This document shows, piece after piece, positions 2,578-41,073 of a stretch of 64,000 nt of DNA. Within the stretch, counting starts at the first letter, position 1. Each line of letters opens with the position of its first letter. A program made the position numbers and the translations under genes. The DNA comes from Phragmites australis (taxonomy: Eukaryota > Streptophyta > Magnoliopsida > Poales > Poaceae). Where the stretch lies: positions 12,469,501 through 12,533,500 of the forward strand of contig NC_084942.1 in NCBI RefSeq assembly GCF_958298935.1, read 5' to 3'. The notes under the pieces are model-generated. The model saw nothing but the letters and a program-made list of their open reading frames with translations. It searched no databases and was not told the DNA's origin.

Positions 2578-3314
2578 CTAGTGCTGGACGACGACAGCTT
2601 GAAGACGGTGTGGGGAGCACAGAGTCTCTTCTTCAGACTCGGAGTTAGGAGAAGAAGTCTCCCAACAATCTGAGTGATGACGCTTCTTGCTGTGTAGCTC
2701 ACTCTGTGCCTGAGCTAGCTTGCCTCTGACATACTGCAACTCCTCAGTGGTACAATCCAACTCATGACTCAGCTCCAAAGCTAGGGTGGTCTGCTATCCA
2801 CACCTGGTAGTGCCTTCTGCGATGATGAGTGTAGCGGTGATGTTGGTGTAGCCACTGACATACTGAGGATAATGGTTGAACTGAGTGAAGATTAGGTCGT
2901 TGTTGTGGCGATGACGAAGAACCAGAAGGGGTTGGTGTGCGGCGTCACGAATTCCAGCCTCGAAGGTAGCTCTTGGTGAGATGGCATAGTGGATGCTCGT
3001 CACTTTGTAGGCTCCATGCTTTGGTAGCGAGCCGTAGATAACCACTTCAACTTTCCACTCAGGAGGAGCATCGGCATACTCAGTCTTTACTCCTGCATAC
3101 TCAGGTGCCTTCTATGATCCCAGACTGTGAAGTATCTCCCAAAGCTTGGCAGGGAACCATCCTGCGCGGTGTCTATCGAAGTGGTAGACATGGCACCAAT
3201 GCTAAACATGAGGCGGCTATGGTCTTGCAAAAGCCATAACATGGGTCGACGTCAACGTTCGAGTAGGGAGACGACCACCAGTGCTCTTGGGTGCAGTTTG
3301 ACGGGTCCAGGCCA
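2578..3314 (-). pseudogene. orf0: A1 orf0 remnant with histone-H3-like N-terminus
   Basis: The minus-strand ATG at 3314 opens AWTRQTAPKSTGG after the Met. This matches histone H3 (ARTKQTARKSTGG) at 10 of 13 positions, and P16 and L20 of H3 also match further on. The frame hits a stop near 3217. Later segments in other frames (PEWKVEVVIYGS near 3050; ATFEAGIRDAAH near 2950) align with the middle domain of intact A2 orf0. The last block (2578-2778) keeps a coiled-coil-like stretch, a basic SKKRHH motif and an acidic Ser/Glu tail, as in A2. It is a pseudogene, but it independently supports the orf0 architecture and its H3-derived start. Confidence 0.8.
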
Positions 3315-3484
3315 TCTATAACATTTTGAAAAGGACAGGGAGAGTCAGTAACAGGGTTTAAATAGAATAAGCCAAGAAAAGCACAGAAAAGCCAAGGCAG
3401 GGTTTTTTGAAAATAGTTTTCTTAACAAAAAATAATCCTTAAGACTTGAACATTTTAACTAGGGTCGCATCCTACGATCAACAC

Positions 3485-27287: not shown

Positions 27288-30200
27288 TGTCACACCCAGT
27301 TTAAAGACCAAAACCAGATGTAAACTATATGTATGCCAGGATCAGTTATTCATACATATAGCGACTTCATTAGTGTAACAGACACAGTGTTTCTTATTAC
27401 AACGCTAAAATATTACAAAATGACCACCCACGGGTCTAAAGAAAAGAACACCACAGCGGAAAAAGGGAACGGCGCAGCTCCAAACCAACAGGCAGCCGAC
27501 CGAGAGGTTCCACAAGCCTAGAACTCGGCATCATCCTCGGGGAAGTCATCCTCAGGAAAATCTTCAAAGGCGTCACCTTCTGAAACAGCAAGCGTGAGTA
27601 TTTCCAACACTCAACAAGTGGGGGAAAACAAATGAATCTAATATGGTGGCTTGAGACAAGGTTTTCCTAATCTAGGGTTTCATTTGCATAAAAGCTGGTT
27701 TTTAGCCCTGAACTACGGAAACAAATTTTTATTTTAACCGAGAAAAGATGTACCAAAGATTTTCTTTAACCTCCGGGAATTCAACCCAATTCCCAGACCA
27801 AGAAAAACACCCACGCCGACTAATCATGCGAGGGTCCAGGCTGCTCATAACCGTGAGCACGGCTGAATATTCAGTTTGACACTCTGCAGAGTTTGTGCAC
27901 TTTACCCACGAGTCGTGATCTTCTCTGTTGCCGGCACCTGATGGTACCTTACACACTTCCGGGGTGTGCGCCAAGAGATCACTACGAGGCTTTTTCAGAG
28001 AGTCTCCCAGAATGCACTTGCCCACTGAGGTTTCACCGCCGTACATAAGTGGAGTAACCCTCCACCCCAGAGGCCCCCTCTTGTGCCGGGTAGAATCGGG
28101 AAGTAACCCTTCCTTATCTACACATCCGATTGGCTCATACAACCCTGGGAGAACATCTAATTACTAGGCCAAGCCGTACCATATTGGTCTCGTGGTTGCC
28201 TTGTTTGCCATGGGTGTTCGCTCCACGAACCGGTCCTTAAAATGGTCTGGGCAAGACCTCCAATAACCCCATAAGGGTATACTACCCAACAACCAAACAA
28301 CCAACCATGTCGGGAAAAGTAGCCCTTTCTTGCCCAGAACCCCAATTATCTTCGTTGTTAACTCCCTTAACAAAATTAATTTTCCATGATATTCTTCCTA
28401 TATCAATTTTTAGTTCATAACTCAAGATTCATCATCCTACACGCTACATGTTCATCTAAAGAATGGCTAAGCAAAAACATGATGATCTTGTATGGATAAA
28501 GCATCTATATCCAACACTAGTATTTGCTATACTACCCATTTTTGTAAAGCATCATGCATATTTTGAGAAAGACTACTTGATGTAAAACTGGGTTTGCAAC
28601 ATGGTCAAGACACTTGCCTTCGTTGAAGTGTTGCACAGGTCCCTTAAAATCTTCCTCTTGAAAGTTGCCGAACTCCTGGACCGAATCGTCTACACAAGCA
28701 CACAATCTAACATGAGAACAGTACACCAAACATTCCTAAAACTAGAGAAAAACCCTATAAACAGATTCTACACGTCGCTACGAGAATATGAGCGCAAAGA
28801 TCGCCTAAATCGGAGCTACGAGCAAAAAGTTATGAGCTTTTGAAGATATAGGGGCTATTATGCAAATTACTTGAATTTCCGAGAATTACCGAATTGTTTT
28901 TATACTGAAAATCCTATTTATAAAACAAATCCAGGGGTTTCTATAAAAGTACATAGCTTTTATGAGGTTACAGAGAAGTCTGGGGCTAAAGTGCAAAAGA
29001 TACCACTTTTCCCGAATTAAAACAAATATAAATCTGACTGGGTATATGGATGATGATGAGGCATCGCTACGCGGGCAAAAAGGCTGAGGTGGCCGGCTTA
29101 CAGGGGCGATGAGGTGGCGGTTCTTTGCCAACTAGGATTACATAACACACGTGTCGCAACGGAATTGGCTAGGCGAAGGGGTATTGGAGCATCTAATCTG
29201 GGCCATCCATCACGGATTCGAAGGTGGGAAACAGAGGGAGCTCGGACCGGTGGCGCAGACACGGCGGCGGCCGGCCGGCGGCGGCAGAATGGCCGGAACC
29301 GCACCGGAATCACACAAACGGCCACGAAATGCGACGGAATGACTTTCAAACGGAGGAGTAGCTCACGAGGAGTGCATACCGAGGCTTCACAGAGGCGGAG
29401 ATAATCCGGGTGATGGCCGGCGACGGGGAAGAACGGGCGGCGGCCTTGGAGCTCGGTGCGAAGGCGTTCGGCGGCGGGAGAGACACCGAGGAGCGTCGGG
29501 AAGCGTCGCCCGGTGTCCTGCGACACCAAAGAAGCGAAGACTAAAGTAAAAAAAAAAGGGTTCAGCACGGTGAAGCAAGGCGGCGGCGAGCTTCTCACCG
29601 GTGGCAATGGAGGAGACGGCGCCGGGTTCGAATCCGAGCGGAAGAAGAGGGGGAAACGGTTGCAAAAGCACGGAAAGTCACCAGGAAGATGATGGTCGAC
29701 TTAAATACAAGAGAGGGGGAGGGGATCGGCCGGAATTTGAAGAAAATGGCCGGCGGCCATGGCTCTGAATGGCGTCGGTTCCCTCGCATTCAATCGAGCT
29801 ATGGAGAGGGGAAACCGTCGGGGAAGAGGGAATAGGGGGCGTGGAACCCAGCAGCGGTGATTAATTGGCGAGGTAGTGCGCGGGGGCTCGAATTTGAATC
29901 GGCGGTGGTGGATTTTGGGAAAAACGGCCGGCGGCCGGAGGTGGGAGAAGCAGAGCCGCGGCTCGGGCGGAGCGGCTCGGCGCGGGCGGCTCAGCGCGGG
30001 CGGCTCAGTGCGGGGTCCACCCGACAGAGGGGGTCGGCGGAAGAGGCCGGCTGGGGGGCGGCTGTAGGCCGGCTCGGCCGATGGGCCGGCGCGGGGGAAG
30101 AGAAGACGGCCCACAAGAGAAGGAGAAGGGGAGGGAAAAATGGGCCGAGGGAGAAAGAATCGGCCTGAGGGCATTTTTCCTTTTAGAAATTCTTTTTCCA

Positions 30201-30440
30201 AATGAATTTCATCAAATGTTCCAATGGGGGTTTTAAAGCGGCGAAACCTAGCAAAATTTTGCAAACTTTTTCCACCCAATAAAACCTTATTGCATCTACA
30301 ACGGCATGAATGCAATCAAACAATTAACCTAGGCCTTGTTAATTTTAGAAATTAATTTCCTATTGAGCTAAGTTGCAACACCTGAGTTAAATCTAAGAAA
30401 GTTTTAAATTATTGCAAAAATTTGAATTTTGGGTGTTACA
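27288..30440 (-). repeat. A2 3' LTR (minus-strand sense)
   Basis: Plus strand TGTCACACCC to GGGTGTTACA, 3153 bp. A minus-strand TATTTAA box is at 29701-29707 and a GC-rich region upstream of it at 29860-30130. An inverted repeat GCTCA/TGAGC is at 27843-27858. A 137-codon minus frame (28142-27729) is shared with LTR E but shows no coding-type substitution pattern. Confidence 0.92.
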
Positions 30441-30457
30441 AACCTACCCCCCTTAGG
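30441..30457 (-). other. A2 polypurine tract
   Basis: The minus strand reads CCTAAGGGGGGTAGGTT directly before the 3' LTR. It overlaps the last codons of pol. Confidence 0.85.
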
Positions 30458-33400
30458 ATGAATCTCGCCCTCGAGATTCGGGTTGATCTTCAAATAACTG
30501 CGGGAATTCTGCCTTCAGATCATCTTCTCGCTCCCAGGTTGCCTCATCTTCCGAGTGATGACTCCATTGAACTTTGCACATTCTAATAGCCTTTCTTCTC
30601 GTTGTTCGCTCTACAGTGTCTAGAATTCTGATAGGATATTCTGCATAGGTCAGATCTTCTTTTGGGTCCACTTCTTCCAGGGGTAACTGTTCTTCTGGCA
30701 TTCTTAAACATTTCTTTAATTGAGATACATGAAATACATCATGCACGTCAGCCAGCGTAGATGGCAGTTCCAGCTGATAGGCTACCTCTCCACGTCTAGC
30801 GATTATCCTGAATGGTCCAATGTACCTGGGTGCCAATTTTCCTTTAACCTTGAACCTGCGGAGACCTCTGATAGGTGAGACTTTCAAATACACCATATCC
30901 CCCACTTCAAAGGTCAATCCTCTCCGTCGATTATCCGCATAGCTCTTTTGTCGGGACTGTGCGGCCTTCAAGTTTTCCCGTATGACCTGAACCTGTTCTT
31001 CTGCTCTTCTAAGAATTTCTGGCCCAAACACTTGGCTTTCTCCAGTTTTGTTCCAATACAGCGGAGTTCTGCACCTTCTACCATACAAAGCTTCATATGG
31101 AGACATTTTGAGGCTGGCTTGGTAGCTGTTATTGTAAGAAAACTCTGCATATGGTAAGCTTTTATCCCAACTCTGCTTGTACTTCAAGGCGCAGGCTCTT
31201 AACATATCTTCCAACACTTGGTTGGTCCTCTCTGTCTGTCCATCGGTTTGGGGGTGATATGCGGAACTGAAGTTCAGTTTAGTGTCCAAAGATTCGTGTA
31301 GTTTCTGCCAGAAGCGAGAGGTAAATTGGGTACCTCTGTCCGACACAATCTTTTTGGGTACCCCATGTAGACACATAATTCTTGACATATACAACTCGGC
31401 AAGTTTCGCACTTGAATATGTTGTCTTGACTGGGATAAAATGCGCAACCTTCGTTAAGCGATCCACCACTACCCAGATAGAATCGTAGCCTGCTTGAGTG
31501 CGGGGTAACCCGACGATGAAATCCATACCAATTTCTTCCCACTTCCACTCTGGAACTTTCAAGGGTTGCAATAATCCTGCTGGCCTTTGATGTTCTGCCT
31601 TTACTCTCTGACAGGTGTCGCACAAAGCCGCATATTCTGCAACATCTCTCTTCATACCATACCACCAATAATACTCTTTCAGATCCTGATACATCTTAGT
31701 GCTCCCGGGGTGAATGGAATGTGCAGAATCATGTGCTTCTCGCAAAATTAAATCCTTCAAAACTTTCTGGTTGGGTACACAAATCCTTTTCCCAAACCAC
31801 ACTGTTCCTTGATTATCTTCCGAGAAACCCGGTGCCTTATCTGTTTTTATGAGTTGTTTGATCTCCTTTATTTTCTCATCTTCCCATTGTCCTTTTCGGA
31901 TGTTTTGTTCCAATTGTGACTTCATTTCTATTACTGTTGCATCCATGTCGGCAATAAAACCTAAATTTAATCTCTCAAATTCCTTGCATAATTCCGGCTG
32001 ACTTCCTCGCAACATAGTCATATTGCAATATCCCTTCCTACTCAGGGCATCTGCCACAACGTTTGCTTTCCCAGGGTGGTAATGTATTCCCACATCATAA
32101 TCCTTGATTAGTTCCAACCATCTACGTTGCCGCAAATTAAGATCCGGTTGGGTGAAAATATATTTTAGGCTTTTATGATCCATATATATTTCACATCAGT
32201 TGCCAATGAGGTGGTGCCTCCAAATTTTCAGGGCGTGAACTACTGCAGCTAATTCCAAATCGTGGGTCGGATAATTTTCCTCATGTTTTCTTTACTGCCT
32301 AGATGCATATGCTACCACATGACCTTCCTGCATAAGCACACATCCCAACCCTTGTCGAGATGCATCACAATACACCGAGAACGACGTCTGGGTGTCTGGC
32401 ATGATAAGAACTGGCGCGGTGGTCAACTTTTTCTTCAATTCATTGAAACTGGCTTCTCGAGCGGCTATCCATTTGAATTCTGCTCCTTTTCCTAGTAGTT
32501 CTGTCATTGGTTTCGCTATCTTGGAAAAACCTTCTATAAATCGGCGGTAATACCCTGCTAAACCCAAGAAACTGCGGATCTCCGAAACATTCTGCGGGGT
32601 TTTCCAGTTTAGTACATCCCTTACTTTGGACGGATCTACGGACACACCTCCCGATGAAATAATATGACCAAGGAAGGGTACTTCCGTCAACCAGAACTCA
32701 CACTTACTCAATTTGGCATAAAGTTGGTTCTCCCTGAGTTTCTGTAATACCATCCTTAAGTGTTCCTTGTGTTCTTCCTTGCCCTTGGAGAAGACCAGGA
32801 TATCATCAATAAACATTACGACGAACTTGTCCAGAAACTTCATGAAGACTTTATTCATTAGGTACATGAAGTATGCTGGTGCATTTGTCAAGCCAAAAGA
32901 CATTACCGTGAACTCATAAAGGCCATATAGGGTGACGAACGCGGTCTTTGGAATATCCGAAGCGCGAATTTTCAACTGGTGGTATCCGGACCGAAGATCA
33001 ATCTTGGAGAAAATACACGCCCCTTTCAACTGATCAAACAGACCATCAATGTGAGCCAGTGGGTATTTGTTCTTGATAGTTACTTCATTGAGAGCCCAAT
33101 AGTCAATACACATCCTTTGCGTTCCATCTTTCTTGGGTACAAAGATGACCGGAGCTCCCCAGGGTGAAGAACTAGGGCGGATAAACCCTTTGTCTAACAG
33201 CTCTTGGATTTGCTCCTTGAGCTCTGCCAACTGATTGGCATCCATTCTATAAGGTCTCTTATATATAGGTGCAGTTCCTGGCACTAATTCAATCACAAAT
33301 TCTATTTCACGATCTGGCGGCATACCTAGAAGATCATCGGGAAATACGTCCGGGAATTCATTCACCACACTGATCTCTTCGATAGGAATACCCTTCATTT

Positions 33401-33855
33401 GATTTAGTGAGCCTTCCTCTGTCGAGGGTATAGCTGCAACAAACTCGACCTGCGTGCCTTCTTGCTTAGTCAGTTGAACTGCTCTTCTGGCGCAGTCTAT
33501 GATTCCCTTATATTTCGCCAGCCAGTCCATTCCCAGTATGACATCAATCCCATTGGATTCCAGAACTATAAGGTTGGCTAAGAAATCTACCCCCCTTATA
33601 CAAAGGCTTAGCTTTGAGCATATATACTTTGCCCTAATCTCTCCTCCAGGAGAGCTAATAATCATTTGCTGCTTCATATTTACAATTGGCAGATTATACT
33701 TTGCAACATATCTTGCAGTGATGAATGAATGTGATGCTCCTGAATCAAATAAAACTGATGCTGGGTTTGAGTTGACAAGGAACATACCAAGCACCACATC
33801 TTGCGCCCCTTGGACTTCTTCAGTAGTGACATGGTTGATTCGCCCACGCGCGTAA
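30453..33855 (-). pseudogene. pol: A2 pol: protease, RT, RNase H, integrase, chromodomain (three stops including the entry stop)
   Basis: This is one unshifted frame continuing from gag. Protease has FDSGASHSF (near 33745) with its catalytic Asp. RT has [28 protein letters not shown] and an intact FIDDILVFS (near 32800). RNase H has [28 protein letters not shown] and [17 protein letters not shown]. Integrase (from 32183) has H151/H155 and C188/C191 of the zinc finger and the triad D221, D282, E318 with D-35-E spacing, counted from the Met at 32183. The last 66 residues ([18 protein letters not shown] ... [14 protein letters not shown]) form a chromodomain. Breaks: TAG 33858-33860, TAA 32292-32294 and TGA 32196-32198. 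It would copy RNA into DNA and insert it, and the chromodomain is thought to guide insertion to heterochromatin. Confidence 0.93.
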
Positions 33856-34979
33856 TTCTATTGAGCCCGGTTGGTTGGAGCTGGTGCCGGGTTCCCATTG
33901 CGGCCTGGAGCTTGATGTTGTCCCTGCTTTGGAGCATTCCCATTGCCATACTGCACAGGAGAGTTGCTGGGTTTCTTCCTTGGGCATTTATTGGCATAGT
34001 GCCCTACTTCACCACAGACGAAACATGCCTTTCCGGTGGAAGGTGCCTGATCACCAAACTTCTGTTGAGGCGTCGGGGGTTGGGTCTGACGAGGGGCTTG
34101 GAAATTTGAGCGCTGAGCTTGCATCTGTAGCTTGTTCTGGTTCTGGTGCTGGTTCTATTGGCGGAACATGGGTCCTTGTTGAGGTGGGTTATAGCGGGGT
34201 CGGGAGCGACTGCTTGAGCCTTGGCCTTGAGAAGACATCTTTCTCTTATGCTCCATCTGGCGGCGTTTGTGTTCCACCACCAGGGCTTTATTTACCATAG
34301 CCTGGAAGCTTGCGAAATCTTGGGGAAGCAATGCATATTGGATACCATCATTCAGGCCCTCTAGGAAGTGTTCCTGCTTTTTCTCATCTGTATCGACATC
34401 CTCGGGGGCATACCTTGATAGTTGTGTGAACTTTGCCACATACTCACTTACAGACATAGCTCTCTGCTTAAGATCATGAAATTCCTTCTTTTTGAGTTTC
34501 ATTGCCCCAGCTGGTATATGGTGAGTGCGGAAACTGGTCTGAAACTCCGCCCATGTGATGGTTTGTGCGTCTTCATGGGCATTGACGTATGCGTCCCACC
34601 AATCAGCCGCGGGCCCGGAAAGTTGGTGTGAAGCAAACAAGACCTTTTCCCTGTCGTTGCACTGAGCTATTAGGAGCTTCTTCTCCGTGGCGTTCAACCA
34701 GTCATCGGCATCCTTTGGTTCCATAGCCTTTGAGAATACTGGGGGCTTGGTTCTCATAAACTCTCCCAACTTATTCTGCGGCGGAGGAGGAGGGGCTTGC
34801 ATGCGCACGGGGGCCTGCTGCATATTTGCCATAGTTTGAGCTAGTCCTTGAAGGATTTGCGTTTGCATGGCCATCATTTGCTCCATGTTCAATTGAGGTG
34901 GTGGAGGAGGAGGAGGCAGTTGCTGGTTGTTGTTGACTTCGTTGTTGCTGGCGCGGGGGTTTCTCTTGGTGTTCACCAT
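33856..34979 (-). pseudogene. gag: A2 gag (capsid and zinc knuckle; one internal stop)
   Basis: The start is MVNTKRN at 34979. An upstream in-frame Met at 35075 exists, but A1 gag aligns from MVN, so I chose the inner one. After a Pro/Gln-rich N-terminus (a PPPPPPP run) comes the retrotransposon-gag domain (DWLNATEKKLLIAQCNDRE; PAADWWDAYVNAHED; VSEYVAKFTQLSRYAPED). Then come a basic Gln/Arg/Ser-rich stretch and a CX2CX4HX4C zinc knuckle (CFVCGEVGHYANKC near 34020). TAG at 34155-34157 splits capsid from knuckle, and a second TAG at 33858 separates gag from protease. No frameshift occurs. It makes the virus-like particle and binds element RNA in the cytoplasm. Confidence 0.92.
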
Positions 34980-35244
34980 CTGCTGGTTGCCAAGGTATGA
35001 GCAGGGAACGGAGGAAAAAGCCAAGACGACAAGATATGACTGAGACAGGAAGAACAAGAGCAAAAAGACTCCCAACTATTTATTATAAGATAACTGATGC
35101 AATGTGGAGAAAGAGCATCCACCTTACATCGACAATCACAAAAAGATCCAACTCATAACATGATCACAAAACAGACACGACGACACCAGGACTAGACAAC
35201 ACAAACGGTTTAGACGACTTATTAAACTGGCTTCAGGTACTCTC

Positions 35245-36042
35245 CTAAGCATGCGACCCAGCAGATGGTTTGGCAGTTGACTGGTCGCCGTCCTCCGAAG
35301 ACTCCTCACTGGAAGGATCGCTGCGGCGTGGCCTCTTGGGAGAGGGCGAGCGAACGGACTGGTCCTCTAAGTCGGAAGAGCTGGACAACCCATTGAGGCT
35401 CTTCTGCAGCTCCCTGATCTGTGCTTCGGCATCACGAAGGCGCTTGTGGGTGTCCTGAAGTTCGTCCAAGGCTTCATCCAAGTCCTCGTGCAGTGTGGTG
35501 GCCAGCAGCACCAGCTCTCGAGCCACACCGCTGTGCTCGTGGGTGGTTGCCTTCACCTTGATGTCCCGGCTTCCACGCTCTAGACGAGGGAAGTAGTCAT
35601 AGGAGGTCCCCCTCAGAGCGCTCCTGTGGCGCTCACAGACCCGAGCCAGTGCCTGCCTTGCTGCGTCTCGGATCACCGCCTCGAAGCTTGCACGGACGGC
35701 CATGGCTTTGTGGATGCCCATGATCTCATAATTGTCGTCACCTTCCGGGGAACCGTAGAGGCACACCTCCACTGTCCACTCCTCACGTCCTGGATAAATC
35801 TGGCGAAGACCGTGGTAGACAGGCGCCTTGGTGTACCCTAGACGCTGCAGCATTTCCACCAGTATCATTGGTGCCTTTCCTGCTTCGAATCCCTTGGAAT
35901 GGTACAGCTTCTTGCTTCCGTTCTTAGGGATGGTGATTCCACGGCTAGGTCCAGCAGAGGCGTTGGGTGCAAAGGTGGCCGGGGCACGGGGAGGAACATA
36001 GCCGCCGGTGGTCTTGCGGGCAGTCTGCTTGACACGAGCCAT
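35245..36042 (-). CDS. orf0: orf0: intact retrotransposon protein with histone-H3-tail-like N-terminus
   Basis: 265 codons, uninterrupted, starting 159 bp after the PBS and ending 266 bp before the gag start in another frame. After the Met it reads ARVKQTARKTTGG, 11 of 13 identical to the H3 tail. Ungapped, 17 of H3 residues 1-29 match (also P16, A21, T22, A24, S28, A29). Lys4 and Lys9 contexts are kept; K14, K18, K23 and K27 are not. MA at the start should let Met be removed, exposing Ala1 as in H3. Residues about 50-165 form an unrecognised domain (YGSPEGDDNYEIMGIHKAM; ASFEAVIRDAARQAL). Residues about 175-217 look like a coiled coil. PKRPRR at 235-240 is a nuclear-localisation-type motif, followed by an acidic Ser/Glu tail. 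There is no histone fold, so it is not a histone. Function unknown; nuclear action on chromatin readers or writers is my inference. Decayed A1 has the same architecture. Confidence 0.9.
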   Translation of the reverse strand: MARVKQTARKTTGGYVPPRAPATFAPNASAGPSRGITIPKNGSKKLYHSKGFEAGKAPMILVEMLQRLGYTKAPVYHGLRQIYPGREEWTVEVCLYGSPEGDDNYEIMGIHKAMAVRASFEAVIRDAARQALARVCERHRSALRGTSYDYFPRLERGSRDIKVKATTHEHSGVARELVLLATTLHEDLDEALDELQDTHKRLRDAEAQIRELQKSLNGLSSSSDLEDQSVRSPSPKRPRRSDPSSEESSEDGDQSTAKPSAGSHA

Positions 36043-36200
36043 CTACAGTTTGGAAACAAGAGAGAATCAGAAAAACATTTTCAATAAAGCAGTAAAATGA
36101 AGCTCAAGGGTAAATGAAGATTTTGCAAATATAATTTTTTTATAAATTAATCCTTATTACGCGACCATTTCTAGCTAGGCTTGCGACCTACGGTCAACAC

Positions 36201-36213
36201 GGCTCTGATACCA
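36201..36213 (-). other. A2 primer-binding site
   Basis: GGCTCTGATACCA on the plus strand, a perfect initiator tRNA-Met complement on the minus strand, four bases from the 5' LTR. Confidence 0.92.
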
Positions 36214-36217
36214 CTTC

Positions 36218-39183
36218 TGTCACACCCGGTTTAAAGACCAAAACCAGATGTAAACTATATGTATGTCAGGATCAGTTATTCATACATATAGCGACTTCAT
36301 TAGTGTAACAGACACAGTGTTTCTTATTACAACGCTAAAATATTACAAAATGACCACCCACGGGTCTAAAGAAAAGAACACCACAGCGGAAAAAGGGAAC
36401 GGCGCAGCTCCAAACCAACAGGCAGCCGACCGAGAGGTTCCACAAGCCTAGAACTCGGCATCATCCTCGGGGAAGTCATCCTCAGGAAAATCTTCAAAGG
36501 CGTCACCTTCTGAAACAGCAAGCGTGAGTATTTCCAATACTCAACAAGTGGGGGAAAACAAATGAATCTAATATGGTGGCTTGAGACAAGGTTTTCCTAA
36601 TCTAGGGTTTCATTTGCATAAAAGCTGGTTTTTAGCCCTGAACTACGGAAACAAATTTTATTTTAACCGAGAAAAGATGTACCAAAGATTTTCTTTAACC
36701 TCCGGGAATTCAACCCAATTCCCAGACCAAGAAAAACACCCACCCCGACTAATCATGCGAGGGTCCAGGCTGCTCATAACCGTGAGCACGGCTGAATATT
36801 CAATTTGACACTCTGCAGAGTTTGTGCACTTTACCCATGAGTCGTGATCTTCTCTGTTGTCGGCACCTGATGGTACCTTACACACTTCCGGGGTGTGCGC
36901 CAAGAGATCACTACGAGGCTTTTTCAGAGAGTCTCCCAGAATGCACTTGCCCACTGAGGTTTCACCGCCGTACATAAGTGGAGTAACCCTCCACCCCAGA
37001 GGCCCCCTCTTGTGCCGGGTAGAATCGGGAAGTAACCCTTCCTTATCTACACATCCGATTGGCTCATACAACCCAGGGAGAACATCTAATTACTAGGCCA
37101 AGCCGTACCATATTGGTCTCGTGGTTGCCTTGTTTGCCATGGGTGTTCGCTCCATGAACCGGTCCTTAAAATGGTCTGGGCAAGACCTCCAATAACCCCA
37201 TAAGGGTATACTACCCAACAACCAAACAACCAACCATGTCGGGAGAAGTAGCCCTTTCTTGCCCAGAACCCCAATTATCTCTGTTGTTAACTCCCTTAAC
37301 AACATTAATTTTCCATGATATTCTTCCTATATCAATTTTTAGTTCATAACTCAAGATTCATCATCCTACACGCTACATGTTCATCTAAAGAATGGCTAAG
37401 CAAAAACATGATGATCTTGTATGGATAAAGCATCTATATCCAACACTAGTATTTGCTATACTACCCATTTTTGTAAAGCATCATGCATATTTTGAGAAAG
37501 ACTACTTGATGTAAAACTGGGTTTGCAACATGGTCAAGACACTTGCCTTCGTCGAAGTGTTGCACAGGTCCCTTAAAATCTTCCTCTTGAAAGTTGCCGA
37601 ACTCCTGGACTGAATCGTCTACACGAGCACACAATCTAACATGAGAACATTTTTATACTGAAAATCCTATTTATAAAACAAATCCAGGGGGTTTCTATAA
37701 AAGTACATAGCTTTTATGAGGTTACAGAGAAGTCTAGGGGCTAAAGTGCAAAAAATACCACTTTTCCCGAATTAAAACAAATATAAATCTGACTGGGTAT
37801 ATGGATGATGATGTGGCATTGCTACGCGGGCAAAAAGGCTGAGGTGGCCGGCTTACAGGGCGATGAGGTGGCGGTTCTTTGCCAACTGGGATTACATAAC
37901 ACACGTGTCGCAACGGAATTGGCTAGGCGAAGGGGTATTGGAGCATCTAATCTGGGCCATCCATCACGGATCCGAAGGTGGGAAACAGGGGGAGCTCGGA
38001 CCGGTGGCGCAGACACGGCGGCGGCCAGCCGGCGGCGGCGGAATGGCCGGAACCGCACCGGAATCACGCAAACGGCCACGAAATGCGACGGAATGACTTT
38101 CAAACGGAGGAGGAGCTCACGAGGAGTGCATACCGCGGCTTCACAGAGGCGGAGATAATCCGGGTGATGGCCGGCGACGGGGAAGAACAGGCGGCGGCCT
38201 TGGAGCTCGGTGCGAAGGCGTTCGGTGGCGGGAGAGACACCAAGGAGCGTCCGGAAGCGTCGCCCGGTGTCCTGCGACACCAAAGAAGCGAAGACTAAAG
38301 TAAAAAAAAAGGGTTCAGCACGGTGAAGCAAGGCGGCGGCGAGCTTCTCACCGGTGGAATGGAGGAGACGGCGCCGGGTTCGAATCCGAGCGGAAGAAGA
38401 GGGGGAAACGGTTGCAAAAGCACGGAAAGTCACCAGGAAGACGATGGTCGACTTAAATACGAGAGAGGGGGAGGGGATCGGCCGGAATTTGAAGAAAATG
38501 GCCGGCGGCCATGGCTTTGAATGGCGTCGGTTCCCTCGCATTCAATCGAGCTATGGAGAGGGGAAACCGTAGGGGAAGAGGGAATAGGGGGCGTGGAACC
38601 CAGCAGCGGTGATTAATTGGCGAGGTAGTGCGCGGGGGCTCGAATTTGAATCGGCGGTGGTGGATTTTGGGAAAAACGGCCGGCGGCCGGAGGGGAGGTG
38701 GGAGAAGCAGAGCCGCGGCTCGGGCGGAGCGGCTCGGCGCGGGCGGCTCAGTGCGGGGTCCACCCGACAGAGGGGGTCGGCGGAAGAGGCCGGCTGGGGG
38801 GCGGCTGTAGGCCGGCTCGGCCGATGGGCCGGCGCGGGGGAAGAGAAGACGGCCCACAAGAGAAGGAGAAGGGGAGGGAAAAATGGGCCGAGGGAGAAAG
38901 AATCGGCCCGAGGGCATTTTTCCTTTTAGAAATTCTTTTTCCAAATGAATTTCATCAAATGTTCCAATGGGGGTTTTAAAGCGGCGAAACCTAGCAAAAT
39001 TTTGCAAACTTTTTCCACCCAATAAAACCTTATTGCATCTACAACGGCATGAATGCAATCAAACAATTAACCTAGACCATGTTAATTTTAGAAATTAATT
39101 TCCTATTGAGCTAAGTTGCAACACCTGAGTTAAATCTAAGAAAGTTTTAAATTATTGCAAAAATTTGAATTTTGGGTGTTACA
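36218..39183 (-). repeat. A2 5' LTR (minus-strand sense)
   Basis: 2966 bp, the same termini as the 3' LTR. It lacks the segment equivalent to about 28710-28905 (junction near 37646) and one of the GGCTCAGCGCGGGC duplications. Inverted repeat GCTCA/TGAGC is at 36772-36787. Confidence 0.92.
38453..38459 (-). promoter_or_regulatory. Candidate TATA box of the A2 5' LTR promoter
   Basis: TATTTAA on the minus strand, between a GC-rich region (38610-38900) that would be upstream and the conserved downstream LTR half. It is the only TATA-like word suitably placed; inferred, not proven. Confidence 0.5.
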
Positions 39184-39399: not shown

Positions 39400-40205
39400 A
39401 AGATCTGACAAAAATGGAGAGCATTACCAAACCTCCGCACAACGGAGTGTTTAACAAAACCTTCGACAAAAACGTAGATTCTTACAAAACCTCCAGCAAA
39501 AACGGAGAGCTTTACCAAATCTCGGCACAACGGAGAATTTTACAAAACCTCTGGGAAAAATGGAGAGCTTTACCAAAACCTCCTCACAACGGAGAGCTTT
39601 ACCAAACCTCAGCACAATGGAGAATTTTACAAAACCTCCTGCAAAAATGGAGAGCTTTACCTAAACCTCCTCACAACGGAGAGCTTTACCAAACCTCGGC
39701 ACAATGGAGAGTTTTACAAAACCTCCGGCAAAAATAGAGAGCTTTACCAAAACCTCTGCACAACGGAGAGCTTCACCAAACCTCCGCCAAAACGGAGAAA
39801 CTTCAAAAAATCTCCGCACAACGGAGAGTTTACCAAACCTCTGCCAAAAATAGAGAGACTTCAAAAAACCTCCGCACAACAGAGAGTTTACCAAACCTTT
39901 ACCAAAACAGAGAGACTTCCAAAAACCTTCGCACAACAGAGAATTTTACAAAACCTCCAGCAAAAATGGAGAGCCTTACCAAAACCTCCGCACCATGGAG
40001 ATTTTACCAAACCTCCCCCAAAATGGAGAGACTTCTAAAAACCTCCGCACAATGGAGAGTTTTACAAAACCTCTCGCAAAAATGGAGAGCTTTACCAGAA
40101 CCTCCGCACCACGGAGAATTTGCCAAACCTCTGCCAAAACGGAGAGACTTCCAAAACCCCTACAATGGGGATGTTTTTCGAAAACTCCGTTGGGCGGAAA
40201 GGTTC
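39400..40205 (+). repeat. About 30-bp tandem array with about 90-bp higher-order period
   Basis: Roughly 25 head-to-tail monomers of the type CGGAGAGCTTTACCAAACC followed by TCCGCACAA. In 39545-39740 three monomer variants alternate (endings CTCCTCACAA, CTCAGCACAA, CTCCTGCAAAA), giving a unit of about 90 bp. CTCCG-CACAA-CGGAG at monomer joints is a short inverted repeat. Repetitive frames are open on both strands; I see no evidence that they are genes. Confidence 0.85.
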
Positions 40206-40535
40206 TGAAAGGACCTAACAGGAAGATTACCTTGACATCTTGAAGGCAAATGCCTCTGTGCAAAAGGGGTACGAAACCTGCTGGCCTCCAAAGGGCACAT
40301 CACACAGATCAAAGGGGTACAAATATCCCCTTCCCTATAGGGAAAGGTATGACCCGCGTGACTAAAACACATATGGTAAAAGGTAAAATCATTACCCTAC
40401 CATCTCCTTTAAAGACACATTTCATACGTCATCTTGTGAAAATTATACTGATATTTAATAAAACCCACGCTGCATGACACGGGAAATAGAGTGGCACCCT
40501 CGACTATCCATTACAGAGGCTGCAAATTCATTGCG
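40206..40535 (+). other. G interior spacer, nothing recognised
   Basis: No coding domain or clear repeat between the two arrays. Confidence 0.4.
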
Positions 40536-41073
40536 GTAGCTAAGGGCCGAGGGGGTCGCAGACCACCTCTCCCGCCAAGCCTTCGGCTTTGCCTCCAACA
40601 AGGTGTTGCTAGGCTCTAGACGAAGTACCTCTGGAGCTGAGCAGTGGCTAAGGGCCGAGGGGGTCGTGGACCACCCCTCCCGCCTAGCCTTTGGCTTCGC
40701 CTCTAACACGCCATCGCCAGGCTCCGGACAGAGTACCTCCAGAGCCAGCTAGTGGCTAAGGGCCACGGGGGTCGCGGACCACCCCTCTCGCCTAGCCTTC
40801 GGCTTCGCCTCTCACACGCCATCACCAGGGTCCGGACGGAGTACCTACGGAGCCAGGCAGCAGCTAAGGGCCAAGGGGGTCGCGGACCACCTCTCCTGCC
40901 TAGCCTTCGGCTTTGCCTCCGACACACCGTCGCTAGTCTCAGGACAGACTACGTCCAGAGCGGGGCAGTGGTGAAGGGCCGAGGGGGTCGCAGACCACCT
41001 CTCCAATTTATCCTTCGGCTTCACCTCCAACACACTGTCGCCATGCTTTAAACATATCACCTTTGAAGCCGGC
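40536..41073 (+). repeat. 108-bp tandem array, five units
   Basis: Unit starts at 40536, 40644, 40752, 40860 and 40968 are spaced exactly 108 bp; the next partial start is at 41074 (106 bp). Key words are GTGGCTAAGGGCCGAGGGGG, CCTAGCCTTCGGCTTCGCC and GTACCTCCAGAGCC. Since 108 is 36 codons, frames stay open across units on both strands. Confidence 0.88.

Follow-up and report, generated by a model that had tools for sequence, protein, structure and literature searches.

The minus strand of a 64,000-nucleotide stretch of the Phragmites australis genome (hereafter the window; contig NC_084942.1) carries a Ty3/gypsy retrotransposon whose additional open reading frame, orf0, encodes a protein that begins like histone H3, and we regard it as highly probable that this start is a selected mimic of the H3K9 site. 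The frame is intact, as the preliminary description of the window had it: positions 36042-35245 translate into 265 residues and a stop, with the N-terminus MARVKQTARKTTGGYVPPRAPATF, and read from its start the frame gives MARVKQTARKTTGG. It lies where that description had placed it, after the primer binding site (PBS, 36213-36201) and before gag (ATG at 34979), in an element with long terminal repeats (LTRs) of ~3 kb, and it is open, whereas the gag-pol region of this copy is split over several separate frames.

The H3-like start of ORF0

After removal of the initiator Met, 11 of 13 residues of ORF0 are identical to H3 and the likeness starts exactly at residue 1; a hand count without gaps gives 17 identities in the first 29 residues, so that both of the counts given earlier were reproduced. 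The likeness fades by about residue 24, and the alignment confirms that lysines K14, K18, K23 and K27 of H3 are absent from the tail. When the whole of ORF0 was searched with phmmer against the PDB sequences, the best 60 of 128 matches were all H3 or H3-like, with a best E-value of 0.0045; profiles built from 3 and 12 ORF0 sequences reached 0.00045 and 0.0002, with H3 throughout the best 60 of 140 and of 138 matches, respectively. These searches identify an H3 N-terminal tail and nothing of the histone fold, for there is no histone family among the three Pfam families listed for ORF0 at an E-value of at most 1 and the predicted fold is a different one, in agreement with the preliminary description. 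At the level of sequence, the H3-like tail of ORF0 is real.

Protein searches gave 30 relatives of ORF0 (P0002-P0031, P0013 and P0014 being found only at E-values of 0.007 and 0.03), with Paspalum vaginatum (P0015, P0018, P0019) and Urochloa humidicola (P0020) as named sources. The frame reaches a start in 13 of the 30, and all 13 starts are H3-like, although the degree varies: P0011 (MARTKQTARKRACG) and P0015 (MARTKQTARKRTCG) are identical to H3 residues 1-9 at nine of nine positions, P0003 and P0008 begin with MARTKNTARKSTGG and MARTKCTPRKSTGG, and the weakest starts are those of P0007 (MTRKLTARKHV) and P0021 (MACIRCTARKSV). P0019 starts at an internal Met, and the 16 other relatives are uninformative because they begin within the body or, for P0004, look chimeric. 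The queries of these searches contained the tail, which biases the set of relatives towards it. In a body-only test, the genome of P. australis itself (an 848-Mb assembly of 28 contigs) was searched with P0008, whose matches fall within residues 112-331 and outside the tail, and the stretch upstream of each match was scored against H3 itself, with 200 mononucleotide shuffles as control. Among 39 loci hand-picked from 121 matches, mostly open frames outside the families already read, 34 score above the maximum of the 200 shuffles. Three of the five loci below their controls retain remnants (L095, L100, L123) and two are devoid of any tail (L105, L110); L102 also exceeded its controls but was left uncounted, as it came from the orf0 search and its match extends into the tail.

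The same genome holds at least 145 scored matches to orf0, and a search with P0006 gave 144. A tail-like start is found in 72 of 83 distinct open frames of at least 195 codons that match the family profile, the remaining 11 starting at an internal Met. Taken with the 34 of 39 loci above, this means that coding-competent relatives mostly keep the tail-like start, a point on which the preliminary description depended. Further H3-like families are present in the genome: 15 of 15 separately read loci of the P0005 family start with MARTKITPRKRV or a near variant, family C with MARTRKTARKSTNG, family D with MARTKQTPRKQVGG and MARTRLTARKQVGG, and family E with MVRQLLTARKSTGG; a search with P0011 found the tail-like start in 10 of 12 chosen loci, L138 and L139 being without it. 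No relatives were confirmed by search in viral or prokaryote contigs. P0002, P0004 and P0005 are near-identical ORF0 proteins within metagenome-derived collections and probably come from plant DNA; P0004 contains a bacterial part (PF00521) and is probably a chimeric contig.

Constraint on the K9 side of the tail

The residues of the tail are not kept alike. In a table of 18 lineages, with one start per lineage, T6, R8 and K9 are invariant (18/18), followed by R2 (17/18) and A1 (16/18); T3, K4, A7 and G13 are kept in 13 lineages each, T11 in 10, S10 and G12 in seven and Q5 in six. K4 is replaced by R in four lineages and by L in one, and A7 by P in four. The table omits the near-duplicates P0002, P0005, P0014 and P0019, further starts from families C and D (L118, with TACK; L111, L132 and L133, TPCK-like or with M in the K4 region), the decayed copy in the window and the 16 startless proteins (P0004, P0009, P0010, P0012, P0016, P0018, P0022-P0031), and P0007 enters it with one gap. 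Within families, single copies with an altered T6, R8 or K9 do occur (e.g., L046, L118). The claim that both the K4 and the K9 contexts are retained thus stands for the K9 side, where T6, R8 and K9 do not vary among the 18 lineages, and fails for the K4 side, where five of the lineages have R or L instead of K4 and where T3 and Q5 also drift. That the tail is conserved over its whole length, K4 included, is ruled out by these five lineages together with the sub3 copies read in the same genome, which have R at this position in six of eight cases, K in one and M in one. In family E (L087, L092, L097, L134-L136) the K4 side is lost and H3 residues 6-13 are exact in most members; in its sequences, the K4 half of the mimic is naturally uncoupled from the K9 half.

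The ratio of nonsynonymous to synonymous differences per site (pN/pS) points to the same residues. Over the codons for H3 residues 6-9, ten pairs drawn from five deep families share an amino-acid identity of 0.85 at a pN/pS of 0.12. In the same pairs pN/pS is 0.45 over H3 residues 1-9, 0.34 in the helix that is kept best, 0.81 over codons 11-24 and 0.63 over codons 25-265. Since synonymous sites over the four codons for H3 residues 6-9 differ by 0.59 per site (pS), a constraint at the nucleotide level is unlikely. The comparison uses one representative per deep family, its pairs are non-independent and the stretch is four codons long; 11 representative starts give 0.14 for the same codons and 0.39 for codons 2-10. 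The tail codons are therefore constrained between families on the K9 side, as the preliminary description required. Close copies were also compared, in a set of 53 (L009-L060 and the window copy) chosen from the 145 matches for near-full length, stop-containing copies included. Over codons 15-265 the ratio of nonsynonymous to synonymous variants (N/S) is 0.17 for variants found in at least four copies, 0.28 for at least two and 0.67 for singletons, a sign that ORF0 as a whole descends from a selected source in the window family. For codons 2-10 the corresponding values are 0.35, 0.88 and 1.40, from too few variants for a verdict; all 53 copies retain K4 and T6, 52 retain K9, 51 R2 and 47 R8, and the other lysines of ORF0 are about equally constant. 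Because close copies offer so few tail variants, it is the deep family comparison that carries the claim of selection, and what this comparison says is that selection acts on the K9 module and not on the whole tail. A short histone-like motif kept under selection in a non-histone protein is one of the marks of a histone mimic, and the start of ORF0 bears it.

The element and the possible roles of ORF0

The features of the window that bear on ORF0 are as follows.

36218-39183, minus strand: 5' LTR, 2966 bp, with ends TGTAACACCC...GGGTGTGACA
36201-36213, minus strand: primer binding site TGGTATCAGAGCC, read from the sequence, which we take to be of the tRNA-iMet type
36043-36072, minus strand: pyrimidine-rich stretch that ends in TAG directly 5' of the orf0 ATG and resembles a 3' splice site
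35245-36042, minus strand: orf0, 265 codons and a stop
35971-36039, minus strand: H3-like tail over codons 2-24, with the clearest likeness in codons 2-14
36013-36024, minus strand: codons 7-10 (T6-A7-R8-K9 of H3), the most constrained part (pN/pS 0.12, 0.14)
35623-35880, minus strand: predicted domain like a double-stranded RNA-binding domain (dsRBD), residues 55-140, alpha-beta-beta-beta-alpha
35392-35532, minus strand: predicted long helix, probable coiled coil, residues 171-217, with weak coiled-coil Pfam matches
35323-35337, minus strand: KRPRR, read from the translation, a putative nuclear localisation signal, presumably so from the type of motif
34155-34979, minus strand: gag frame from the ATG at 34979, with CAG directly 5'
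32292-33797, minus strand: pol frame with protease and reverse transcriptase (Pfam)
30453-32183, minus strand: pol frame with integrase (Pfam)
30489-30584, minus strand: chromodomain at the integrase C-terminus (PF00385, E-value 8.7e-5; its 22.8 bits fall short of the curated cut-off, 25.1)
27288-30440, minus strand: 3' LTR, 3153 bp, containing an insertion of ~180 bp that the 5' LTR lacks
2839-3315, minus strand: decayed orf0 of a second element, from another ORF0 family, starting MAWTRQTAPKSTGG (MAWTRQTAPKSTGGRLPTR...) and with stops

The two LTRs differ by a Kimura two-parameter distance of 0.013, i.e., about 0.5 million years at a rate of 1.3e-8 per site per year. The second, decayed element has its own PBS and gag start, and its orf0 resembles that of family C. 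Just beyond the 5' LTR lie tandem arrays at 39501-40179 and 40533-41073 of the window, with spacings of 29/87 bp and 108 bp. Elsewhere in the genome, near-identical intact copies of a 249-codon orf0 stand ~8.65 kb apart (C10:34239404, 34248056 and 34256699; C21:22864879 and 22873531; C3:399493 and 408118), several of them near contig ends, as if their elements were in tandem.

The retention of K9 suggests that a family of grass retrotransposons imitates the mark that its host uses for silencing. In plants, H3K9 methylation by SUVH4-6 is described as working with CMT2, CMT3 and, via SHH1, Pol IV; SHH1 reads unmethylated K4 together with methylated K9, and ZMP also reads unmethylated K4 (sections of PMC7617993). 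A kept K9 next to a K4 that several lineages have exchanged for R or L, neither of which is methylatable as a lysine, fits a decoy or docking site for the H3K9 machinery. In the preliminary description, ORF0 could sequester chromatin factors, recruit them or compete for them. It is tempting to propose that, in the ORF0 of this probable chromovirus lineage of grasses, the H3-like N-terminus (A1-R2-x-K/R4-x-T6-A/P7-R8-K9) is disordered and would be joined through a flexible linker to the dsRBD-like domain and then to the coiled coil, while the basic stretch near the end of ORF0 may direct the protein to the nucleus. The tail would take up the H3K9 site of the silencing machinery, such as an H3K9 methyltransferase of the SUVH4/KYP type or a reader like SHH1; the dsRBD-like domain, by predicted fold nearest to DRB and DCL domains, would dock on Dicer/DRB-type partners and carry the decoy to the RNA-based arm; and both parts jointly would blunt small-RNA-directed and H3K9-methylation silencing locally at the element. 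That ORF0 interferes with silencing at all is put forward tentatively, as a possibility to which we give somewhat less than an even chance. The combination of histone mimic, dsRBD-like fold, H3.3 origin and local interference is the best explanation we have of the whole, and as a whole it falls only a little short of even. A clade-wide version, in which the ORF0 of grass retrotransposons, an H3.3-exon tail fused to a dsRBD-like domain, would antagonise host silencing in its H3K9-methylation arm as well as in its Dicer/DRB arm, appears rather unlikely.

The tail might alternatively serve the element's own targeting: once methylated by the host at K9, it would bind the chromodomain of the element's integrase or the heterochromatin readers of the host and steer integration to or from heterochromatin, without any suppression of silencing. 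The chromodomain is indeed encoded by the same element, K9 is the retained lysine, and the chromodomain of the fungal element MAGGY reads H3K9me2/3 (PMC3350952, in part). Yet the chromodomain match is below the Pfam cut-off, four of the 18 lineages have P in place of A7, and plant group II chromodomains, beside whose description we set a TWE motif read in this region, are reported to lack the first cage residue and in most cases the third, the Tekay type being without a known partner (PMC3350952, in part). We consider this reading improbable.

Another reading makes the tail a relic, i.e., the start of H3.3 was captured as a ready promoter-proximal start, with splice acceptor and ATG, and the tail is merely inherited or helps to start translation or to stabilise the protein. 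In the P. australis genome, five H3 genes break into exon-like pieces with GT directly after codon 24 in each, for which reason their first coding exon is probably codons 1-24. TAG stands directly 5' of the ATG in three of five H3.3 genes, and directly 5' of the orf0 start in 59 of 60 loci of the same family and in 31 of the 35 loci from other families in which a start is marked; codons 11-24 of the exon drift (pN/pS 0.81). Over their first 42 bases, orf0 and the H3 genes share 29-34 identical nucleotides, a figure that would follow from an old capture as well as from selection on the amino acids. The origin of the tail is read most simply as capture of an H3.3 first exon, possibly together with its splice acceptor; this reading, though not a proof, seems moderately probable. 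A passive start, however, would not single out T6, R8 and K9, which do not change across the 18 lineages despite a pS of 0.59 (pN/pS 0.12), and we give low probability to the tail being a relic and nothing else. L128, an H3 gene start of the same genome, has Gly13 replaced by Val (MARTKQTARKSTGVKAPRK).

Candidate 3' splice sites lie before both frames on the minus strand, at 36043-36072 (TAG of orf0) and 34980-35010 (CAG of gag), and CAG is directly 5' of the gag ATG in 46 of 53 copies. The AG-ATG site of orf0 has a pyrimidine fraction of 0.73, the highest of 25 in the element jointly with a site found in both LTRs, and that of gag is ordinary (0.59). It is possible that alternative 3' acceptors set whether ORF0 or Gag is translated; simple patterns found no splice donor in the LTR or leader.

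The rest of ORF0 raises the question of a function on the RNA side. Residues 55-140 very likely adopt a dsRBD-like fold: the predicted model has the alpha-beta-beta-beta-alpha order of a dsRBD, the model of the distant P0011 has its structural elements in the same order, and the predicted fold resembles the dsRBDs of plant DRB and DCL proteins (DRB7.2, HYL1, DRB4, DCL4 dsRBD2) over the whole domain. For the P0011 model there are no dsRBDs among the best 50 Foldseek matches, while VIA listed dsRBDs among Foldseek's top 1000; a fold search of BFVD with ORF0 gave nothing at an E-value of at most 0.001 and one weak match to a DRBM protein, and no dsRBD family appears in the Pfam results for P0001 and P0003 or in 25 of 31 families (24 members). 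ORF0 could then mainly bind RNA or Dicer/DRB proteins, for packaging, nuclear export or suppression of silencing, with the tail a basic patch or a site of arginine or lysine modification unrelated to H3. Besides the predicted fold, this is favoured by the second helix of the domain, which is the best-kept large element of ORF0 (pN/pS 0.34). But the tail is H3-specific in sequence searches and more constrained than that helix, and the KKxAK motif, which makes the RNA contact at the start of dsRBD helix 2, is absent from 24 of 24 aligned ORF0 rows, so that canonical dsRNA binding is unsupported. A mainly RNA-side function hence looks quite improbable. Accidental resemblance of a short basic start to H3, to which the brevity of the stretch and the modest single-sequence E-value (0.0045) might point, is ruled out by the body-only test, in which 34 of 39 loci exceeded all 200 shuffles, and has a practically negligible probability next to the nine of nine identities of P0011 and P0015.

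Relation to known systems and significance

An ORF0 without obvious function, lying between PBS and gag, has been described in Retrosat2, RIRE3 and RIRE8, where it diverges much faster than ORF1 (PMC3485330, in part). Compared by description, our element is like these in its separate frame, its Ty3/gypsy type and its ~3-kb LTRs, and the 10-bp LTR ends of RIRE8/Retrosat2 (TGTCACACCC-GGGCGTGACA) match TGTAACACCC and GGGTGTGACA at 9 of 10 positions each. The difference is in the function proposed: the accessible text of PMC3485330 offers only modelled enzyme classes and does not contain the word 'histone'. Our Pfam and fold searches gave no pointer to an enzyme, nor do they disprove one.

A few viral and host proteins are known to mimic histones. 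The nearest precedent in function that we know of is influenza NS1, which also has an RNA-binding domain and carries its H3-like motif, of four residues, at the C-terminus. Host proteins such as G9a carry an H3-like ARKT/ARKS site; the ARKT of the window tail is the same site, but theirs is internal in host enzymes, while that of ORF0 is N-terminal and in H3 register. Like ORF0, NS1 is a foreign protein that carries a short motif resembling H3 (PMC3510240, in part); the H3-like start of ORF0 differs in being N-terminal, 9-14 residues long, with K9 kept, and in belonging to a retrotransposon family. H3 and H3.3 themselves are like ORF0 in the first 13 residues and in the exon frame of codons 1-24, whereas ORF0 has no histone fold and has lost the modifiable lysines beyond K9. 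The dsRBDs of plant DRB and DCL proteins are like ORF0 in predicted fold, ORF0 lacking a dsRBD Pfam match and KKxAK. The word 'histone' does not occur in the accessible text of a review of extra open reading frames (PMC7264820), and full-text literature searches, which leave most subscription journals and preprints outside, listed no account of H3 mimicry by a retrotransposon. What is new is the kind of carrier in which the histone mimicry occurs, the ORF0 frame itself being already known.

A transposon family in which selection maintains a copy of the H3K9 site would directly counter the mark by which plants silence transposons, and the mimic reading gives the orphan ORF0 of grass elements a testable function. 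The ORF0 family also constitutes a natural mutagenesis series, in which K9 is retained and K4 is lost in some lineages. If the clade-wide antagonist reading were true, ORF0 would gain a function and the abundance of these elements would be partly explained. Finally, because grass genomes are largely composed of such elements, an anti-silencing protein that acts in trans would matter for genome size and for epigenetic stability.
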